64,000 bases of DNA, taken from positions 1 through 64,000 of the forward strand of contig NZ_LMJA01000031.1 in assembly GCF_001428895.1 (NCBI RefSeq), given 5' to 3'. Under the pieces are notes generated by a model. It saw only the letters and a list, made by a program, of their open reading frames with translations, ran no database searches and was not told the DNA's origin. The DNA is from Mycobacterium sp. Root265 (lineage in GTDB: Bacteria > Actinomycetota > Actinomycetes > Mycobacteriales > Mycobacteriaceae). The position numbers and the translations under genes were made by a program. Shown here in pieces: positions 52,626 through 61,346 of this stretch; positions within the stretch are counted from its first letter, which is position 1; each line of letters starts with the position of its first letter.

Positions 52626-53507
52626 GTGACCGATCAGCTACCTGTGAGCCAGGCCGCGATCCGATATCCGTTCGGATTGCCGGAACAGGGCTGGCGCAAA
52701 GCGGTCAAGGTCAGCCTGGGGCGCACCCTGCTCACGCTGCGCCCGCGCTACGGCCGGCAGCTGCTCGATCAGGGCGATCCCGCAACCTTCACGCTGGCCG
52801 ATCGGCTGATGCTGGCCGGCTGGACCAGCCGCGCCACGCCCGCCGACTGGCCGGCGCTCAGCGCCCTGCACCAGCGCTTCTGGGCTGGACCCGGTGGCGC
52901 GCGGTTCAGCGCAGACCCCGACATCGCCGAGCGTTTCCAGGAGTGGTTCCTGCGCGAGCACGCCCGCCCGTTGGAGTTCCTGCGCCGCGAGCTGAGTACC
53001 CGGTCCTGCCCCGCGCTCTGCGAGATCGGCAGCGGCAACGGCCTGGCCCTGGAGTACCTCAGCCGGCAACTCCCCGAGATCGGCCGCTTCGTCGGCGTCG
53101 ACATCAACGCCGAGGCGACCCGCACCAACGCCCGCCGCTGGCAGCACGAGGACCGGCTGGGATTCGTCGCCGCCGACGCGGTGTCCTGGATCGACGCGAA
53201 CACCGGCGCCGACTGGACGTACTTCTCCAATGCCGGCGTGCTGGAGTACCTGCCCGAGGAGAGGGTCACCGAGCTCTACCGGATCACCGCGCAGCGCGGC
53301 GGCTGGTGGCTGCTCACCGAACCGGTCTACACCGGCTACGACCTGAGCACCGAAACCCGCTCGCGTCCGCACGGCAACGAGTTCAGCTTCTGCCACAACC
53401 ACCCGCACCTACTCACCCGGGCCGGCTGGGACGTCGTCGAGCAGTACGAGACCGAAGTGGCGGGCATGCGCTTCCTCACCATTTCTGCGCGAAAGGCTGC
53501 CGCGTGA
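52626..53507 (+). CDS. SAM-dependent methyltransferase of the NRPS-PKS cluster
   Basis: 293 residues. A helical N-terminus (about 1-125), then a class I SAM domain with CEIGSGNGLALEYLSRQLPE, GVDINAEA, and NAGVLEYLPEERV. No recognised substrate motif. It overlaps the megasynthase start (GTGA), so the two are co-translated and it probably methylates the product or a carrier-bound intermediate. GTG 52626 has AGGA 8 nt upstream. Confidence 0.87.
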   Translation: MTDQLPVSQAAIRYPFGLPEQGWRKAVKVSLGRTLLTLRPRYGRQLLDQGDPATFTLADRLMLAGWTSRATPADWPALSALHQRFWAGPGGARFSADPDIAERFQEWFLREHARPLEFLRRELSTRSCPALCEIGSGNGLALEYLSRQLPEIGRFVGVDINAEATRTNARRWQHEDRLGFVAADAVSWIDANTGADWTYFSNAGVLEYLPEERVTELYRITAQRGGWWLLTEPVYTGYDLSTETRSRPHGNEFSFCHNHPHLLTRAGWDVVEQYETEVAGMRFLTISARKAAA

Positions 53508-56500
53508 GCACCATCCAGGATCTGTTCGCGCAGCAGGTCGCCCGCACCCCGGACGCCGAGGCGATCGCCCACCGCGACAGGTCGCTGACCTACGCCGAGT
53601 TCAACGCCCGGGCCAACGGGCTGGCGCACCGACTGATCGACGCCGGGCTGACGCCGGGCACCGGAGTGGCCTTCCTGTGCGACCGCACCCCGCTGTTGCC
53701 GATCGCGCTGATGGGCATCCTGAAGGCTCGCGGCTACTACATACCGCTGGACCCGACCTACCCCGCCGCCCGCATCGACGGGATCTTGGCCGACGCCCAA
53801 CCGTTCGCACTGGTCACCGACCGTGACGCGGAGGGCCTGCGCGCCATGGGCATTCAAGCCGGCACCCGGGTGGTACAGCTGCGCGATGACGATGCCGGCC
53901 ACGACACCAACCCACCGGCGGGCAGCGCCGATGACCTGGTGTACTCCATCTACACCTCTGGATCCACCGGAAAACCCAAGGGCACCCTGAACTTTCAGCG
54001 CGGCGCGGTCAACGTCAACCGCTGGATGATCGACGGTTTCGGCGTCGGCCCGCAGACCCGCGCACTGGTGGCGACCTCCATCGGCTTCGACATCACCAGC
54101 AAGGCGATCTGCTCACCACTGCTGGCCGGGGGCACCGTGGTGCTCTACGACTCCCCCGTCTACGACCCGCCGCGTATCCGCGCCGCCATCGTCGACTTCA
54201 GCGTCAACACCCTCAATCACACGCCGACCGGTCTGCTCGGCCTCATCGAGGACGGCAGTGCGGCGACCTACGCGCAGATGGCCGGCGTGCGACGGCTGCT
54301 GATCCTGGGCGAGGCGCTGCGCCTGGACCGGTTCCGAAACTGGCTGACCCACGCCGATACCCGGCCCGCGCTGTTCAACGGCTACGGGCCCACCGAGTGC
54401 GCCGACACCATCGCCGCCCACGAGGTCACCGACGCCGATATCAGCACCGGCGGTGACTGCCCGCTCGGTGACGCCCTGCCCAATATCGTGCTCACCGTCC
54501 GCGACCGTGACCTGCGCCTGGTCACCCACGGCGAAAAGGGCGAGCTGTGCGTGCAAGGTGTCTGCGTGGGCGCCGGGTACCGCAACCTGCCCGAGCAGAC
54601 CGCGGCCGCGTTCGTCGCCGACCCGCTGGGCGGTGACACGCTCTACCGCACCGGCGATCTGGTCAGCCGGCGCGCCGACGGGGTGTTGCTCTATCACGGC
54701 CGGATGGACCACCAGGTCAAGATCCGCGGTCACCGGGTCGAACTCGGCGAGATCGAACAGGCCCTCAACCGCATCCCCGGTGTACTGGAGAGCGTGGTGA
54801 CCGCGCCGTCCCGACCGGACGGGGAACGCTTCGTGGCGGCATACCTGCGCACCTCCTCCGAGGGTGCGCGGGACCGAACCGCACTCAATGCCGTACTGGC
54901 GCATGATCTTCCCGACTTCATGGTCCCGGCCAGCTACACCTTCATGGACACCTTCCCGGTCAACGCCAGCTTCAAGGTGGACCGCAAGGCGCTGCCCGCA
55001 CCGGTGCTGGGGCGCCCCGCACTGGGCACCGCGTACCGGCCGCCGGCCGATGCGCTGGAACGCACGCTGACCGCCATCTGGGAAGACCTCCTCGGGTTCC
55101 CCGGCGCCGGTGCCGAGGACCCGTTCTTCGAACTGGGCGGCAACTCGCTGCTGGCCACCCGGCTGGTGACCCGGGTCAACGCCGAAGTCGGTGCGGCACT
55201 GACGATCACCGAGTTCTTCGAGAAGCCGACGATCGCCGGGGTGGCCGCCAGGCTGGCGCGGCCCGAACCGGCCGCCGCGCCCGTGCCGCGCGCCCCGCGG
55301 CACCGCCGCACAGGCGAACACATCGCGATCGTCGGCATGGCGGCCAGGGTGCCCGGTGCCGCCGACGTAGCGACGTTCTGGCGCAACCTGCTCGACGGGG
55401 TGGACTCGCTGGAAGTGCTGGAGTTCAACCCGGACCTGCCCGGGCAGGTGCCGGTCAGCGGCTGGGTCGCCGACTCGGAAACCTTCGACCACACCTTCTT
55501 CGGCTACACCCCGCACGAGGCCGAACGGATAGACCCGCAGCAGCGCCTGCTGCTGCAGACCGCGGTGGCCGCCTTCGAGGACGCCGGGCTGGCCACCGCC
55601 ACCAGCACGCTGCGCGCCGGCATCTACGCCGGTGTGGCCGCCAACAGCTACCTCACCCGCAACGTGTTGCCGCACGATCAGACCGGCGATTACGGCCTGG
55701 GCTACGCACTGGTCGGCAATGACAAGGATTACGCCGCCACCCGCATCGCCTACAAGCTGGGACTGACCGGGCCCGCGATGAGCGTGCAGACGGCGTGCTC
55801 GTCCAGTGGCGCCGCGCTGCACCTGGCCTGTCAGGCGTTGCTGGCCGACGACTGCGATGTGGCGCTGGCCGGCGGCGCGTCGCTGCCCTGGCAGTACCGC
55901 CACGGGCACGAGCACATTCCCGGCGGGGCGCTCAGCGCCGACGGGCGGGTACGCGCGTTCGATGCCGATGCCAGCGGCATGGTGCTCACCGGCGGCGGCG
56001 CGTGTGTCGTGTTGCGGCGCCTCGACGACGCGATTGCCGACGGCCACACCATCCACGCCGTCATCCGCGCCACCGCCCTGAACAACGACGGCGGTGAGCG
56101 TGCCAGTTTCACCGCGCCCAGCATCGCCGGGCAGCGGGACGTGGTGCGTACCGCGCTGGACCGTTCCGGTATCAACGCCCGCAGCATCGGCGTGCTGGAG
56201 GCCCACGGCACCGGCACCCCGCTCGGCGACCCCATCGAGGTGGCCGCCATCACCCAGTCCTGGCGGGAGGACACCGAGGACACCGGGTTCTGTGCGATCG
56301 GCAGCGTGAAGACCAACATCGGGCACCTCGATGCCGCAGCGGCCATGACCGGCGCGATCAAGCTGGCCCTGATGCTGCGCCACGGCGAACGCCCGGCCAC
56401 CCTGAACTTCGAGAAGCCCAACCCGGACTGCGCCTTCGAGTCCTCGCCGTTCTTCGTCAACGACACCCGCACCAGCTGGGCGCCCGACGGTCCGCGCCGA

Positions 56501-59500
56501 GGCGCGCTGTCCTCGTTCGGTTTCGGCGGCACCAATTTCCACGCCATCCTGGAGCAGGGCCCGGTCCAGGCGTCCACCCCGGCCCGCCGGGAGTGGCAGG
56601 TGCTGCGCCTGTCGGCGCGCAGCGCCGAGGCGCTGCAGACCCAGATCGACGACCTGGCCCGGGTGCTGACCGGCTCCGCGGATTCGCTCGCCGATATCGC
56701 TTACACACTCGATGTGGGCCGCAACCGGCACCAGTACCGGGCCGCGGTGGTGGCCCGGACCCACGGGCAGGCCGCCACCCGGCTCGCGGACCCGGAAAGC
56801 GTTGTCACCGGACGTGATCCGCAGGGGCGCCCGCACCTGGTGTTCGGTTTTCCCGGCCAGGGCGCCCAGCACACCGGGATGGGACGCCGGCTCTACGAGA
56901 CCGAGAGCGTGTTCCGCAGCGCGGTCAACCAGTGCGCCGACATCCTGCTGCCAGCGCTGAACGTCGATCTGCGCGATGTGCTCTTCGACGCCGATTCCGC
57001 CGATGCACTGCGCGACACCCAGCTGGCCCAGCCGGCCATCTTCACCATCAGCTACGCCACCGCCAAGCTGTGGATGAGCTGGGGATTGAAGCCGCACACC
57101 ATGATCGGGCACAGCGTCGGCGAGTTCGTGGCCGCCACCCTGGCCGGTGTGTTCGAGCTCGAGCATGCGCTGCTGATCCTCGCCGAACGCGCCCGGCTGA
57201 TGCAGTCGATGCCGGCGGGCGGGATGCTCGCGGTGCGGCTGTCCGAACAGGACGCCGGCCGGTACGTGCGCGGGTCGGTCGCCGTTGCCGGTGTCAACTC
57301 GCCGAAGCTGACCGTGCTGTCCGGCCCGCATGGTGAACTCGACGAGGTACGGGCTCAACTGGAGTCCGCGGGGGTGCCCACCACCGCGCTGCACACCAGT
57401 CACGCCTTCCACTCACCGATGATGGATCCGATCGTCGATGCGTTCACCCGGGTGGTCGCGCAGTATCCGCGCACCGCGCCGTCGCTGCCGTTCTACTCCA
57501 GCCTGTCCGGGCTGCCGATCACCGACGAGCAGGCCCAGGACCCGAATTACTGGGCGCAGCAGTTACGTCACGCGGTGCGTTTCGCGCCTGCCCTGCGCCA
57601 CGTCGCCGAACATCCCGGCGTCGTGTTGCTGGAATGCGGTCCCGGTCAGAACCTCACCACCAGTGCCCGCCAGTGCGGGGTCACCGCGGTGGCTTCACTC
57701 CCCCATGCCGGTGCCGCCGACGCCGACGATGCCGAGCACGTCGCCGCCGCGGTGGGCCGGCTGTTCCTGTGTGGGGTGGACACCGATGCCCGCCGGGTGC
57801 ACGCCGGCGAGACCCGGCTCCGGGTCAGCCTGCCGACCTACCCGTTCGCCAAGACCCGACACTGGCTCACCCCGGCCGGAGCGCTGCCCGTCACCGCCGC
57901 CGCCCCGGCACCGGAAACAGAGGCACCTCAGCAAGACATCGAGGCCGACCCGGCGGACCGGATGACCACCTTCGTGCGGACATTGTTCGCCGAGGTGGCC
58001 GGTGTCGACATCGGCCCCGATGACGATCACCGCTCCTTCCTGGAGATGGGGTTCGATTCCCTGCTGCTGACCCAGATCACCACCCAGGTCAACCAGCGGC
58101 GCTCGGTCTCGCTGCGGTTTCGCCAACTGCTGGAGGAGTTCACCACCCCGGCCGGGCTGGCGGCGCACCTGCTGGAACTCGACGCCGGCGGCGCAGATCC
58201 GCAGAAGCCCAAGGTCTTCGGTGCGGGAGCCCGCATCAGCAAGACCGCCGACGAGTCGTTGACGCCGCGGCAGCGGGCCGCGCTCGACGATTTCGTCGCC
58301 CGCTACACCGCGCGGACCACGCGCAGCCGTGCCTACGCCGACGAGCATCGTCCGCACCTGGCGGATCCGCGTGCGGTGTCCGGGTTCCGGCCGTTGTGGA
58401 AGGACCTGGTCTACCCGATCGTGTCGGAGACCTCGAAGGGCCCGCGGTTCACCGATATCGACGGCAACGACTATGTCGACATCACCAACGGCTTCGGCTC
58501 GGTGTTCTTCGGCCATCGACCGGATTTCGTGGTGGACGCGGTGCAACGGCAGATCGAGCGCGACATCATCATCGGCCCGCAGAACCCCATCGCCGGTGAA
58601 TGCGCCAAGCTGTTCGGGGAAATGACCGGCCATGAGCGGGTCGCCTTCTGCAACACCGGTTCCGAGGCGGTGCTGGCCGCGATCCGGCTGGCCCGCACCG
58701 TCACCGGGCGCAACCTCATCGTGCAGCACGAGGGTGACTACCACGGCATCACCGATGAGGTCCTGGTCCGCAGCACACCGAGCGGCCGGACCGTGCCCGC
58801 CGCGCCCGGCGTCCCGCCGGAGAGCGTGGCCAACACCATCGTCCTGGAATACGGCACCGCGGAATCGCTTGCGGTGCTGCGTGAACGGGCCCACGAGCTG
58901 GCGGCCGTGCTCATCGAACCCGTGCAGTCCCGCAAGCCCGATCTGCAGCCCGCCGACTATGTACGCGAGGTGCGCCGGATCTGCGATGAGAGCGGCACCG
59001 CACTGATCATGGACGAAGTGGTGTGCGGTTTCCGCGTGCACTGGGCAGGCGCCCAGGGTGTGTGGGGTGTGAAGGCCGATATCGGTTGCTACGGCAAAGT
59101 TTTCGGTGCCGGGCTGCCGGTCGGTGCACTGGCGGGCACCGCCCGGTTCATGGACGCCCTCGACGGTGGCAGCTGGCAGTTCGGGGACGACTCGATGCCC
59201 GAGGTGGGAGTCACCTACTTCGCGGGCACCTTCGTGCGCCACCCGCTCACGATGGCCGTCGTGCACGCCACCCTCAAGCACATGAAGGACAATCCGGGCC
59301 TACAGGACCGGGTCAATGCCACCGCCGCGGACATGGTGGACCGCCTCAACGCGCTGTTCCGTTCCGAGGGTGTGCCCATGCACATCGGCCGGTTCGGGTC
59401 GCTGATGAAGCCGGAGTGGACCCAGGAACTCGCCTTCGGCGAACTGTTCTACTACTTCCTGCGCGAAGCCGGGGTGAACGCCTGGGATGCCCGGCCGAAC

Positions 59501-60952
59501 TATCTGACCACCGAGCACGGTCCGGCCGAGGTGCAGTTCATCGTCGATGCGTTCGCCTACGCCATCGCGCAGATGAAGCAGGGCGGCTTCTTCGACGATG
59601 TGACGCCGACGGCGGAACTGTTCGGCGCGACCGTCAGCGCGGACGGCACGACGATCACTTTGCCCAGCACCGAATCCCAGCGTGAGGTCTGGCTGGCCGC
59701 CCGCTTCGTCGGCAACAACAGCGTCGCCTACAACGAAGGTCTGAGCCTGGACCTGGCCGGGCGCCTCGACGAGCAGGCACTGCGGCACGGCCTGCAGACC
59801 CTGCTGGACCGGCATGAGTCGCTGCGCGCCCGGTTCTCCCGCGACGGCCGGTCCCTGGTGATCGACACGACCGTCGAACTCGACCTGCCGGTGCACGACC
59901 TGAGCGGACTCGACGAGGCGGCCCGGGCCGCCTCGCTGGCCCAGATCCACGACCACGAGATGAGCAGCCGCTTCGATCTGCGCAACGGGCCGCTGGTGCG
60001 GTTCCGGTTGGTGCGACTGGGCGCCGAGCACCACAAGCTGCTGTTCGTGACCCATCACGCGGTGTGCGACGGCTGGTCGGGTGCGGTCGCGCTGAGCGAG
60101 CTGGCCGCGCTGTATTCGGCACGGGTGGAGGGACGCGACGCGGCGTTGCCCGCCGCACCGCGATACGCCGACTACAGCGCCGTCGAGCATCACTTCCTGC
60201 AGTCCCGTACCGGCCGGCTGCACCAGGACTACTGGCTCAAGCAGCTGCGCGAGGTGCCTGCGCCACCGCAGATTCCGGGCGACCGGCCCGGCGGTGACGA
60301 CAGTGACCTGTCCGCGGCCCGGGTGGACCTACCGCTGGATGCCGATCTGGTGAGCCGGTTGCGCACCGTGGGCAGCGCGCACGGCGCCAGCCTGGTGGCC
60401 ACCATGCTGACCGGGTTCGCCGGTCTGCTGCAGCAGCGAACCGGGCAGGACGATCTGGTGATCGGGCTGGCCGCGGCCGGTCAGTCCTTCCACGATCAGG
60501 GCAGGCTGGTGGGGCACTGCGTGAACCTGCTGCCCCTGCGTCTGCAGATCGACGGCGCCGACAGCTTCACCGACGCCCTGCGGGGCACCCGAGGCGCCCT
60601 GCTGGACGCCTACGACCACCAGGGCGTCAGCGTGGGCACACTGACCGAGCAGCTCAACCTGACCCGGGTCGGCAACCGCCCGCCCCTGGTCAGCGTGGTG
60701 TTCAACATCGACGTGCGTGACGACGACATCCGGCATACCGGGCTGACCGTCGGCTACGAGACCCTGGTGCGGCAGGCCGAGACGTTCGAACTGTTCATCA
60801 ACGTCGTCGACAGCGGGTCGGCCATGGTGTTGGAGGCGAGTTACCGCACCGCCCTGTACAGCGGGAGGCTGATCCGGAATCTGCTGGCGCAGTTCGAGAA
60901 TCTGCTGCGCAATGTCTGCAGCAACCCCGCGGCGACCGTCGGAGAGCTCTAG
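53504..60952 (+). CDS. hybrid NRPS-PKS megasynthase A-PCP-KS-AT-ACP-AMT-C
   Basis: 2482 residues, one chain. Adenylation domain 1-500 (SGSTGKPKG at 152-160, YGPTE 294-298, RTGDL near 380). Peptidyl carrier with Ser548 (GGNSLL). Ketosynthase 606-1020 with Cys765, His901, His941. Acyltransferase 1110-1400 with Ser1204 (GHSVGE) and HAFH at 1300-1303, the malonyl type. Acyl carrier Ser1519 (GFDSLL). Class III aminotransferase about 1625-2030 with PLP Lys1865 (YGKVFGAG). Condensation domain about 2050-2482 with intact HHAVCDG (2184-2190). No ketoreductase, dehydratase or thioesterase. Expected chemistry: amino acid, plus one malonyl unit, then beta-keto to beta-amine, then amide formation by the C domain with a partner not encoded in this window. 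Iturin/mycosubtilin MycA has a similar AMT-C order. Confidence 0.95.
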   Translation: MSTIQDLFAQQVARTPDAEAIAHRDRSLTYAEFNARANGLAHRLIDAGLTPGTGVAFLCDRTPLLPIALMGILKARGYYIPLDPTYPAARIDGILADAQPFALVTDRDAEGLRAMGIQAGTRVVQLRDDDAGHDTNPPAGSADDLVYSIYTSGSTGKPKGTLNFQRGAVNVNRWMIDGFGVGPQTRALVATSIGFDITSKAICSPLLAGGTVVLYDSPVYDPPRIRAAIVDFSVNTLNHTPTGLLGLIEDGSAATYAQMAGVRRLLILGEALRLDRFRNWLTHADTRPALFNGYGPTECADTIAAHEVTDADISTGGDCPLGDALPNIVLTVRDRDLRLVTHGEKGELCVQGVCVGAGYRNLPEQTAAAFVADPLGGDTLYRTGDLVSRRADGVLLYHGRMDHQVKIRGHRVELGEIEQALNRIPGVLESVVTAPSRPDGERFVAAYLRTSSEGARDRTALNAVLAHDLPDFMVPASYTFMDTFPVNASFKVDRKALPAPVLGRPALGTAYRPPADALERTLTAIWEDLLGFPGAGAEDPFFELGGNSLLATRLVTRVNAEVGAALTITEFFEKPTIAGVAARLARPEPAAAPVPRAPRHRRTGEHIAIVGMAARVPGAADVATFWRNLLDGVDSLEVLEFNPDLPGQVPVSGWVADSETFDHTFFGYTPHEAERIDPQQRLLLQTAVAAFEDAGLATATSTLRAGIYAGVAANSYLTRNVLPHDQTGDYGLGYALVGNDKDYAATRIAYKLGLTGPAMSVQTACSSSGAALHLACQALLADDCDVALAGGASLPWQYRHGHEHIPGGALSADGRVRAFDADASGMVLTGGGACVVLRRLDDAIADGHTIHAVIRATALNNDGGERASFTAPSIAGQRDVVRTALDRSGINARSIGVLEAHGTGTPLGDPIEVAAITQSWREDTEDTGFCAIGSVKTNIGHLDAAAAMTGAIKLALMLRHGERPATLNFEKPNPDCAFESSPFFVNDTRTSWAPDGPRRGALSSFGFGGTNFHAILEQGPVQASTPARREWQVLRLSARSAEALQTQIDDLARVLTGSADSLADIAYTLDVGRNRHQYRAAVVARTHGQAATRLADPESVVTGRDPQGRPHLVFGFPGQGAQHTGMGRRLYETESVFRSAVNQCADILLPALNVDLRDVLFDADSADALRDTQLAQPAIFTISYATAKLWMSWGLKPHTMIGHSVGEFVAATLAGVFELEHALLILAERARLMQSMPAGGMLAVRLSEQDAGRYVRGSVAVAGVNSPKLTVLSGPHGELDEVRAQLESAGVPTTALHTSHAFHSPMMDPIVDAFTRVVAQYPRTAPSLPFYSSLSGLPITDEQAQDPNYWAQQLRHAVRFAPALRHVAEHPGVVLLECGPGQNLTTSARQCGVTAVASLPHAGAADADDAEHVAAAVGRLFLCGVDTDARRVHAGETRLRVSLPTYPFAKTRHWLTPAGALPVTAAAPAPETEAPQQDIEADPADRMTTFVRTLFAEVAGVDIGPDDDHRSFLEMGFDSLLLTQITTQVNQRRSVSLRFRQLLEEFTTPAGLAAHLLELDAGGADPQKPKVFGAGARISKTADESLTPRQRAALDDFVARYTARTTRSRAYADEHRPHLADPRAVSGFRPLWKDLVYPIVSETSKGPRFTDIDGNDYVDITNGFGSVFFGHRPDFVVDAVQRQIERDIIIGPQNPIAGECAKLFGEMTGHERVAFCNTGSEAVLAAIRLARTVTGRNLIVQHEGDYHGITDEVLVRSTPSGRTVPAAPGVPPESVANTIVLEYGTAESLAVLRERAHELAAVLIEPVQSRKPDLQPADYVREVRRICDESGTALIMDEVVCGFRVHWAGAQGVWGVKADIGCYGKVFGAGLPVGALAGTARFMDALDGGSWQFGDDSMPEVGVTYFAGTFVRHPLTMAVVHATLKHMKDNPGLQDRVNATAADMVDRLNALFRSEGVPMHIGRFGSLMKPEWTQELAFGELFYYFLREAGVNAWDARPNYLTTEHGPAEVQFIVDAFAYAIAQMKQGGFFDDVTPTAELFGATVSADGTTITLPSTESQREVWLAARFVGNNSVAYNEGLSLDLAGRLDEQALRHGLQTLLDRHESLRARFSRDGRSLVIDTTVELDLPVHDLSGLDEAARAASLAQIHDHEMSSRFDLRNGPLVRFRLVRLGAEHHKLLFVTHHAVCDGWSGAVALSELAALYSARVEGRDAALPAAPRYADYSAVEHHFLQSRTGRLHQDYWLKQLREVPAPPQIPGDRPGGDDSDLSAARVDLPLDADLVSRLRTVGSAHGASLVATMLTGFAGLLQQRTGQDDLVIGLAAAGQSFHDQGRLVGHCVNLLPLRLQIDGADSFTDALRGTRGALLDAYDHQGVSVGTLTEQLNLTRVGNRPPLVSVVFNIDVRDDDIRHTGLTVGYETLVRQAETFELFINVVDSGSAMVLEASYRTALYSGRLIRNLLAQFENLLRNVCSNPAATVGEL

Positions 60953-60962
60953 AATCCACCGC
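60950..60962 (+). promoter_or_regulatory. promoter built on the megasynthase stop codon
   Basis: TAGAAT (60950-60955) is a good -10 whose first three bases are the megasynthase TAG stop; 7 nt later is ATG 60963. No ribosome site is seen, so the next gene may be made from its own leaderless message. Confidence 0.5.
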
Positions 60963-61346
60963 ATGCTCTTCGCCCGCCAACGTGCCGAGTTCAACCGTAA
61001 GTACGTCAACCCGGTGGTGGAGCCGCTGGCCGGGTATGTGCCGCTGTGGTCGGCCGTCGACCACGTCGGCCGCAAGTCCGGGAAGGACTACCGCACACCG
61101 GTGACGGCGTTCCCGACGACCGATGGGGTCGCGGTGCTGTTGCCCTACGGCACTGACACCGACTGGGTACGCAACCTGCAGGCCTCCGGGTCCGGGCGGG
61201 TGCAGATCGACGGTCGCAGCCTGCTCGTGGAGGAACCCCGGGTGGTGCCGCTGAGTGAGGCGCTGAGCGTCGTGAAGGGGCCGTGGCGACACGTATTGCG
61301 CATCGCCCCAATCGAATCCGCGTTGTTGCTCACGCGCTCCAGCTGA
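60963..61346 (+). CDS. DDN-like F420-dependent nitroreductase family protein
   Basis: 127 residues of the deazaflavin split-barrel family: LWSAVDHVGRKSGKDYRTPVTAFPTTDGVAVLLPYG, then DTDWVRNLQASGSGRVQIDGR. Such proteins use F420 to reduce quinones, enones or nitro groups. It starts 10 bp after the megasynthase and could reduce its product, or it may be independent given its own promoter. Overlaps the convergent PPOX gene by 17 bp. Confidence 0.85.
   Translation: MLFARQRAEFNRKYVNPVVEPLAGYVPLWSAVDHVGRKSGKDYRTPVTAFPTTDGVAVLLPYGTDTDWVRNLQASGSGRVQIDGRSLLVEEPRVVPLSEALSVVKGPWRHVLRIAPIESALLLTRSS

Follow-up and report, generated by a model that had tools for sequence, protein, structure and literature searches.

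The window analysed here is a 64,000-nt stretch of Mycobacterium sp. Root265 (contig NZ_LMJA01000031.1, positions 1 to 64,000; genome of 6.67 Mb). It carries a methyltransferase (MT) gene and, directly after it, a single gene for a hybrid nonribosomal peptide synthetase–polyketide synthase (NRPS–PKS), hereafter the line, which ends in a condensation (C) domain. We tentatively propose that this C domain may accept an amino acid from a free-standing carrier charged by an amino acid:[carrier protein] ligase, and that the product may decorate an exopolysaccharide (EPS). The features are listed below, where A is adenylation, PCP peptidyl carrier protein, KS ketosynthase, AT acyltransferase, ACP acyl carrier protein and AMT aminotransferase.

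52626-53507, + strand: class I S-adenosylmethionine (SAM)-dependent MT, 293 aa (Methyltransf_25, E 1.7e-6)
53504-60952, + strand: hybrid NRPS–PKS, A-PCP-KS-AT-ACP-AMT-C, 2,482 aa (Pfam order, homology)
53507-55012, + strand: A domain, code DIKNLLGDTK
55028-55297, + strand: PCP (FFELGGNSL)
55307-56437, + strand: KS
56837-57712, + strand: malonyl-type AT (GHSVGE, HAFH; Pfam, motifs)
57938-58207, + strand: ACP (MGFDSL)
58283-59617, + strand: pyridoxal phosphate (PLP)-dependent AMT of mycosubtilin type (Pfam, PDB relatives, tree)
59657-60949, + strand: terminal C domain, HHAVCDG (Pfam, motif)

The domains follow one another in one frame as Pfam matches to AMP-binding, PP-binding, ketosynthase, acyltransferase, PP-binding, class-III aminotransferase and Condensation, and the MT stop overlaps the synthase start by 4 nt (GTGA, 53504-53507). 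An earlier note, made from the window alone, had read this same domain order with a co-translated methyltransferase, and both parts of that reading hold. By homology the synthase starts at the GTG at 53504 (the program-listed open reading frame, ORF, begins at 52943) and stops at the TAG at 60950-60952. The ketoreductase (KR) family is absent among the 12 Pfam matches, and the AMT directly follows the ACP of the PKS module; with the GHSVGE and HAFH motifs of the AT, this bears out the malonyl-extending module without KR that the note had described. Its statement that the active-site residues are intact extends to five species: Root265, M. bacteremicum and the genomes designated G566, G133 and G617 all contain PCP GGNS, KS TACSSS, EAHGTGT and KTNIGH, AT GHSVGE and HAFH, ACP GFDS, AMT YGK and C HHAVCDG, with small variants (PCP GGSS in G617, KS KSNIGH in G133 and G617, C HHAICDG in M. 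bacteremicum). The A-domain code read by hand was reproduced as DIKNLLGDTK, its final K being assumed and not read; it is identical in Root265, G566 and M. bacteremicum and becomes DIKQLLGDMK in G133.

The best solved relative of the AMT domain is the mycosubtilin AMT (6kfm, E 2.3e-116), the best glutamate-semialdehyde aminomutase reaching only 1.5e-51. This match supports the beta-amination suggested earlier, and the Root265 AMT would convert the beta-keto thioester to a beta-amine. Subunit A of the mycosubtilin/iturin synthase has the order AL-ACP-KS-ACP-AMT-C, and the line shares with it a PKS extension followed by the same AMT type and a C domain. In contrast, the Root265 line starts with an amino acid and not with a fatty acid, lacks a fatty acyl ligase at its start and contains an integral AT; its AMT lies outside the iturin branch, and no following NRPS was found.

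The compact single-protein architecture stands in all five species. Among 397 sampled genomes of the genus, an AMT search at E 1e-60 matched nine, five of them at at least 80% identity (Root265, G566, M. bacteremicum, G133 and G617) and the other four at 42–53%; this search does not list a second AMT line of Root265, and more diverged lines escape it. At 1e-80, 401 genomes of the family gave two matches (Root265 and G133), and 396 genomes across the phylum gave four besides Root265, all at 42–51%. A scan of 84,980 species depends on exact short peptides and is blind to diverged relatives; besides M. bacteremicum it listed Candidatus Hatepunaea with a 44% match, all further matches listed being weaker. 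No known product was found for the line.

The line stands next to hemL, or at the matching site, in Root265, G566, M. bacteremicum and G617, and at a different location in G133; when the G133 locus is aligned with the others by blastn, only MT and the synthase align. The A to C domains are 59–95% identical among the orthologues, except for a replaced A domain and its PCP (47%) in G617. There the loading A domain (C343:1377-3164) has been naturally exchanged and is only 30.6% identical, while KS to C stay at 62–80%; its code is DVQFIAHV, which we take to be proline-like.

The aminotransferase clade and its exopolysaccharide loci

In an AMT tree of 37 rows, the five mycobacterial lines fall into a clade (100/100) with lines from EPS loci. 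The clade also holds Rhizobium, Sinorhizobium, Rhodobacter, Loktanella, Jannaschia, Aliiroseovarius, Variovorax, Spirosoma, the genomes G833 and G033 and the second Root265 line; iturin-type, cyanobacterial and other lines fall outside. The EPS-locus lines of the first six of these genera and of Variovorax paradoxus share the order A-PCP-KS-AT-ACP-AMT-C with the Root265 line, and their AMT domains are 47–51% identical to its own. The cyanobacterial AMT line of a Planktothrix plasmid follows a similar KS-AT...AMT-C logic; however, it starts with a fatty acyl ligase, lies outside the clade and has no EPS genes.

A locus was scored as EPS-linked when a sugar transferase, flippase, export protein, tyrosine autokinase or pyruvyl transferase lay beside the line, a criterion fixed after the first loci had been seen. 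By this measure, EPS assembly genes occur at nine of the 13 assessable clade loci, excluding the five mycobacterial lines, and at none of ten outside (p 0.0009); the rhizobial and rhodobacterial rows are mutually related, and the stretches compared are unequal (20–25 kb for genome loci, and otherwise flanks of 15 or 18 kb that in some cases stop at the end of the record). The nine are two Rhizobium loci, Sinorhizobium (by tblastn only), Rhodobacter, Loktanella, Aliiroseovarius, Jannaschia, V. paradoxus VAI-C and the second Root265 line; the ten outside are nine annotated loci and Burkholderia (by tblastn only). A former count of 8/12 against 0/9 had Burkholderia arboris in the near group, and it was repeated because the tree placed that line outside; the recount left out G833 (a contig of 6.9 kb) and added the second Root265 line, with the genome G949 and Candidatus Hatepunaea unscored. 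With five more outside genome loci, seen by tblastn only, the outside count becomes 0/15 (p 0.0001). Sugar genes below the criterion occur outside the clade (galU and GtrA in Bacillus, one glycosyl transferase at the edge in Paenibacillus), and inside it the single glycosyltransferase of Variovorax WDL1 was likewise not counted.

Because most of the assessable clade loci lie in EPS loci, the diffusible natural product implied by the earlier note is doubtful, and these loci point to polysaccharide decoration as the likely function of this supported clade of beta-aminating NRPS–PKS lines. Term searches of the open-licence literature, which are weak as proof of absence, found no description of such lines in EPS loci among the papers listed.

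The second AMT line of Root265 (C29:222000-247407) consists of KS-AT-ACP-AMT followed by C and A, and sits in an EPS locus with a sugar transferase, a flippase, a UDP-sugar dehydrogenase and heparinase-like genes. M. bacteremicum also has a second AMT line (C85), which continues after the AMT as C-A-PCP-C-A-PCP, and a sugar transferase was seen there.

The terminal condensation domain

The C-domain border at which the line ends is identical in all five orthologues (5/5), which occupy two distinct genomic sites, and none of them has an A domain in cis behind it. A tblastn search at E 1 over the 30 kb downstream returned only matches of 30 aa (E 0.007) and 20 aa (E 0.96) and no A-domain remnant; the same search also missed the carrier of the EPS island described below, and is thus blind to small carriers. 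The border shared by five species and the missing remnant rule out truncation by a recent stop, so the end of the line is not an artefact. The observation that the chain ends in a C domain with no A-PCP behind it stands.

Ten plasmid relatives within the clade carry a second A domain (A2) behind this C domain. In six of the ten, the A2 code is DILQ(L/M/W)G(M/L)IW, presumably a glycine code, exactly where the mycobacterial line stops. The EPS-locus lines thus differ from the Root265 line in continuing with a second A domain and, in 7/8, also with C-PCP. Three relatives were scanned to their C-termini: two end in C-PCP-thioesterase (TE), and V. paradoxus ends in C-PCP without TE. Most simply read, an A(Gly)-PCP module was lost from the mycobacterial line or was never part of it, and the line may instead draw a small amino acid, bound to a carrier, from the EPS island.

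The single-contig genome of G133 was used to survey other possible partners. Of its eight Condensation matches, one belongs to this line, five lie in one cluster at 3.53–3.55 Mb, which we take to be that of mycobactin, and two are isolated and weaker. Among 20 PP-binding matches, six were examined (two of the line, the EPS carrier and three others) and seven lie in the mycobactin-like cluster, with another seven outside the examined set. The line would therefore need no second NRPS module, or would use a partner of a different kind.

One further NRPS-like A-PCP protein of G133 was followed up (C1:416500-424000); it is fused to hexapeptide repeats, has the code DAESIGTVV and resembles epsilon-poly-lysine synthetase. 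On the Spirosoma plasmid pSLIN02 (9532-16353), an A-PCP-KS-AT-ACP-AMT protein ends at the AMT with no C domain, and an acetyltransferase gene lies just before it; its A code, DFWNIGMVH, is presumably that of threonine.

A ligase, a carrier and the possible function of the line

In G133, the line and an EPS island are contiguous, with two small ORFs between them, and a seryl-tRNA-synthetase-like protein and a carrier lie about 8 kb from the line. The Root265 ligase scores 417.8 bits against NF005479 (cut-off 357), and the adjoining carrier scores 99.7 against NF005480 (cut-off 72). The closest structures in the PDB are Bll0957-type amino acid:[carrier protein] ligases (4h2w/3mey); unlike those ligases as known, the one found here is linked to an NRPS–PKS line. 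The earlier note had asked the right question in calling release, or a partner in trans, unexplained; a candidate partner does exist, and the note could not see it because the ligase lies beyond the window, 22.6 kb downstream.

The ligase occurs in 25 of the 397 genus genomes, namely in 5/5 with a close line and in 20 of the other 392 (Fisher p 6.6e-7, with ancestry not corrected for and the line and ligase searches, each covering 397 genomes, taken to share one genome set). In the 20 line-less genomes, the ligase is 68–73% identical to the G133 copy; two more genomes have matches of 31–33%. The carrier is found in 24/25 ligase islands, the G617 contig ending before it, so that a free carrier accompanies the line in four of the five genomes, those whose contigs reach it. 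In genomes with an A-PCP in cis after AMT-C (G033, G057, G585 and G530), the ligase search gave 0/4 (p 0.008), three of these lines being near-copies in the AMT tree.

Among the proteins of the Root265 island are an EPS sugar transferase that exceeds its NCBIfam cut-off, a repeat-unit polymerase match that falls short of its own, a tandem alpha/beta hydrolase and a beta-helix protein; the G133 island additionally has glycosyltransferases and a Wzx-type flippase. Homologues of the Root265 sugar transferase or polymerase occur in 18 of the 25 ligase islands, including all five that bear the line, one island being counted through a 35-aa fragment where its contig ends. The two hydrolase halves match two neighbouring hydrolases of the V. 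paradoxus EPS–NRPS locus (profile E 4.9e-34 and 2.7e-17 in a 12-protein set), and over 31 sequences the same pair are the only matches (E 8.6e-31 and 1.4e-14).

These observations suggest the following scheme. The A domain would load an amino acid, which MT may modify, and the PKS module would extend it by malonyl; amination by the AMT would then give a 3,4-diamino (beta,gamma-diamino) acyl chain. The acceptor of the terminal C domain may be a small amino acid, glycine or alanine, on the free-standing carrier of the EPS island, loaded by the seryl-tRNA-synthetase-like ligase of the same island. Several proteobacterial relatives have an A(Gly)-PCP behind the same C domain, and ligase and carrier would stand in for it in trans. 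Transfer of the resulting acyl dipeptide to a sugar of the EPS may then follow, perhaps through the tandem alpha/beta-hydrolase protein. According to a table in a 2022 review, ligases of this family load Ala, Gly and Ser (PMC9437257). The note added in proof of Iyer et al. (2010) predicts that a carrier-bound amino acid is moved to a cell-surface amino sugar and does not serve peptide synthesis (PMC2922099); the EPS end point of the scheme agrees with this prediction, and the peptide step proposed here goes beyond it.

Several findings weigh against the scheme. Of the other four of the ten A2 codes, the three from Variovorax have no substrate match and that of Aliiroseovarius is valine-like; outside the ten, the G033 code has no substrate match, and the A2 of B. 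arboris, which lies outside the AMT clade, appears to us serine-like. The second AMT line has the A codes DISSLCMLY, which are not glycine-type, and both Root265 and M. bacteremicum carry the ligase together with such a line in which A follows C, so that ligase and cis module are not mutually exclusive. The presence of the ligase in 20 genus genomes without a close line means that it has a role of its own and need not feed the C domain; G690, likewise, has the ligase at the same ppx site and no line match (1,020 contigs). In the ligase tree, four of the five form one group (81/89) and only two changes are needed, so the co-occurrence amounts to about two independent events (0.004 by frequency alone). 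The distance between line and ligase is 22.6 kb in Root265, 23.1 kb in G617 and 26.5 kb in G566, a weak linkage, with hemB, hemD, hemC, hemA and ppx lying between them in Root265, and in M. bacteremicum the ligase is on a different contig from the line. Inspection of the carrier residues by eye found no feature special to the line-bearing genomes. The sugar transferase and polymerase queries found nothing in the fetched stretches of seven of the 25 ligase islands, and four of the 13 clade loci (Spirosoma, two other Variovorax and G033) have no EPS genes. Two points in particular reduce our confidence: Root265 combines a cis module in its second line with the ligase in its genome, and EPS genes were shown in 18, not all, of the islands. 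We therefore hold the specific model, the addition of a 3,4-diamino acyl unit to a ligase-made aminoacyl-carrier for EPS decoration, as tentative and short of an even chance, while an EPS-linked function of the line in some form seems to us slightly favoured. The fuller claim remains doubtful to us: that ligase and carrier, class II tRNA-synthetase-like and free-standing, form a trans 'A-PCP' of ribosomal ancestry through which a mycobacterial exopolysaccharide receives a 3,4-diamino acyl dipeptide, and that the line belongs to a broad, unrecognised group of EPS-decorating NRPS–PKS lines.

The line may also be a self-contained small-molecule pathway, in which the terminal C domain releases the chain by attack of its own 4-amine, giving a 4-amino-pyrrolidin-2-one, or by a soluble amine, the EPS neighbourhood being coincidental. 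The intact C motif, the 20 genomes with ligase and without line, and the sharing of only MT and synthase in the G133 alignment agree with such a pathway, which we consider a real if rather unlikely possibility; the ligase nevertheless accompanies the line in 5/5 genomes, its EPS island is contiguous with the line in G133, the AMT clade has its EPS context, and no exporter family was named among 19 flanking proteins scanned besides MT, seven of which lacked any Pfam match. Decoration of EPS could bypass the aminoacyl-carrier step if the C domain or the alpha/beta hydrolase of the island transferred the diamino acyl chain straight onto an amino sugar of the EPS unit, with ligase and carrier adding a separate aminoacyl group. 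This would fit the prediction of Iyer et al. for such carriers, the EPS context of the clade and the V. paradoxus line, which ends in C-PCP without TE and has two alpha/beta hydrolases beside it. However, the proteobacterial homologues of the C domain are followed by a peptide module, which indicates that the ancestral acceptor was a carrier-bound amino acid, and we judge direct transfer improbable.

A partner among the other NRPSs of the genome that begin with A-PCP seems very improbable to us. Root265 does have other NRPSs, including the second AMT line on C29, but that line has its own C domain before its A domain, and G133 has a single other NRPS cluster, the putative mycobactin one (13 of the 20 PP-binding matches being accounted for). 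Loss of the downstream module could have left a degenerate or inactive line, as the A domain behind this C domain in the relatives might suggest; intact motifs in five species, the identity of the A to C domains outside the replaced G617 pair and the missing A-domain remnant downstream make this the least credible explanation.

The specific model bears on a wider question. Ligase, carrier and a line lacking exactly one aminoacyl-carrier occur together in five species, the carrier being seen in four, which makes the biological role of these ligases directly testable. Their structures are solved and their chemistry is known, while the 2022 review states in one passage that their role 'remains unknown' (PMC9437257), and later papers may exist.

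A candidate third case of a ligase linked to an AMT line, in G949, was not counted: about 9 kb separate its ligase-like gene (34% identical) from an AMT line with a terminal C domain, and the cluster looked by eye like another natural-product type. The G133 island also has a 142-aa gene, which by its motif we take to be an AcpS-like phosphopantetheinyl transferase. Homologues occur in 19 of the 20 line-less ligase islands, and none was found in the fetched stretches of Root265, G566, M. bacteremicum, G690 and G617, where the contig ends early.

Neighbouring genes and other synthases

Orthologues of MT were found in G566, M. bacteremicum and G133, and none in the short gap after hemL at the G617 locus. 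The combination in G617 of a replaced A domain and no MT found is a hint that MT acts on the first residue of the chain, which is probably its site. MT is 30.6% identical over 268 aa (E 6.6e-38 in the 12-protein set) to a methyltransferase of the Aliiroseovarius EPS–NRPS locus, the sole match of its profile among 31 six-frame sequences (E 6.3e-45). Assignment to the TIGR04325 polysaccharide methyltransferases was rejected: NCBIfam gave no match near the cut-off, and the best of four such proteins reached E 0.31.

The ORF at 60912-61346 matches F420H2_quin_red (Pfam) and probably starts at the ATG at 60963, by comparison with the 127-aa copy of G566. Its homologues adjoin the line in G566 and M. 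bacteremicum (83%) and in G617 (63%), and in G133 the only ones are 42–44% identical and located elsewhere. A tailoring role in the line is thus ruled out; it is a native, ordinary gene of the hemL locus, and the range to 61346 that the note had assigned to the line extends too far. In G133, a 264-aa gene before MT had given a by-eye impression of a 2-oxoglutarate (2OG) oxygenase, which was dropped: Pfam and NCBIfam returned no match for the gene, the PDB none that was credible, and it is not similar to the Variovorax oxygenase. An Rfam scan of 44–64 kb of the window and a tRNA scan gave no matches. Elsewhere in the Root265 genome (C12:230220-260411), a giant NRPS is encoded by a 10,316-aa open frame in which Condensation and PCP matches are numerous; M. 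bacteremicum has it too (10,317 aa).

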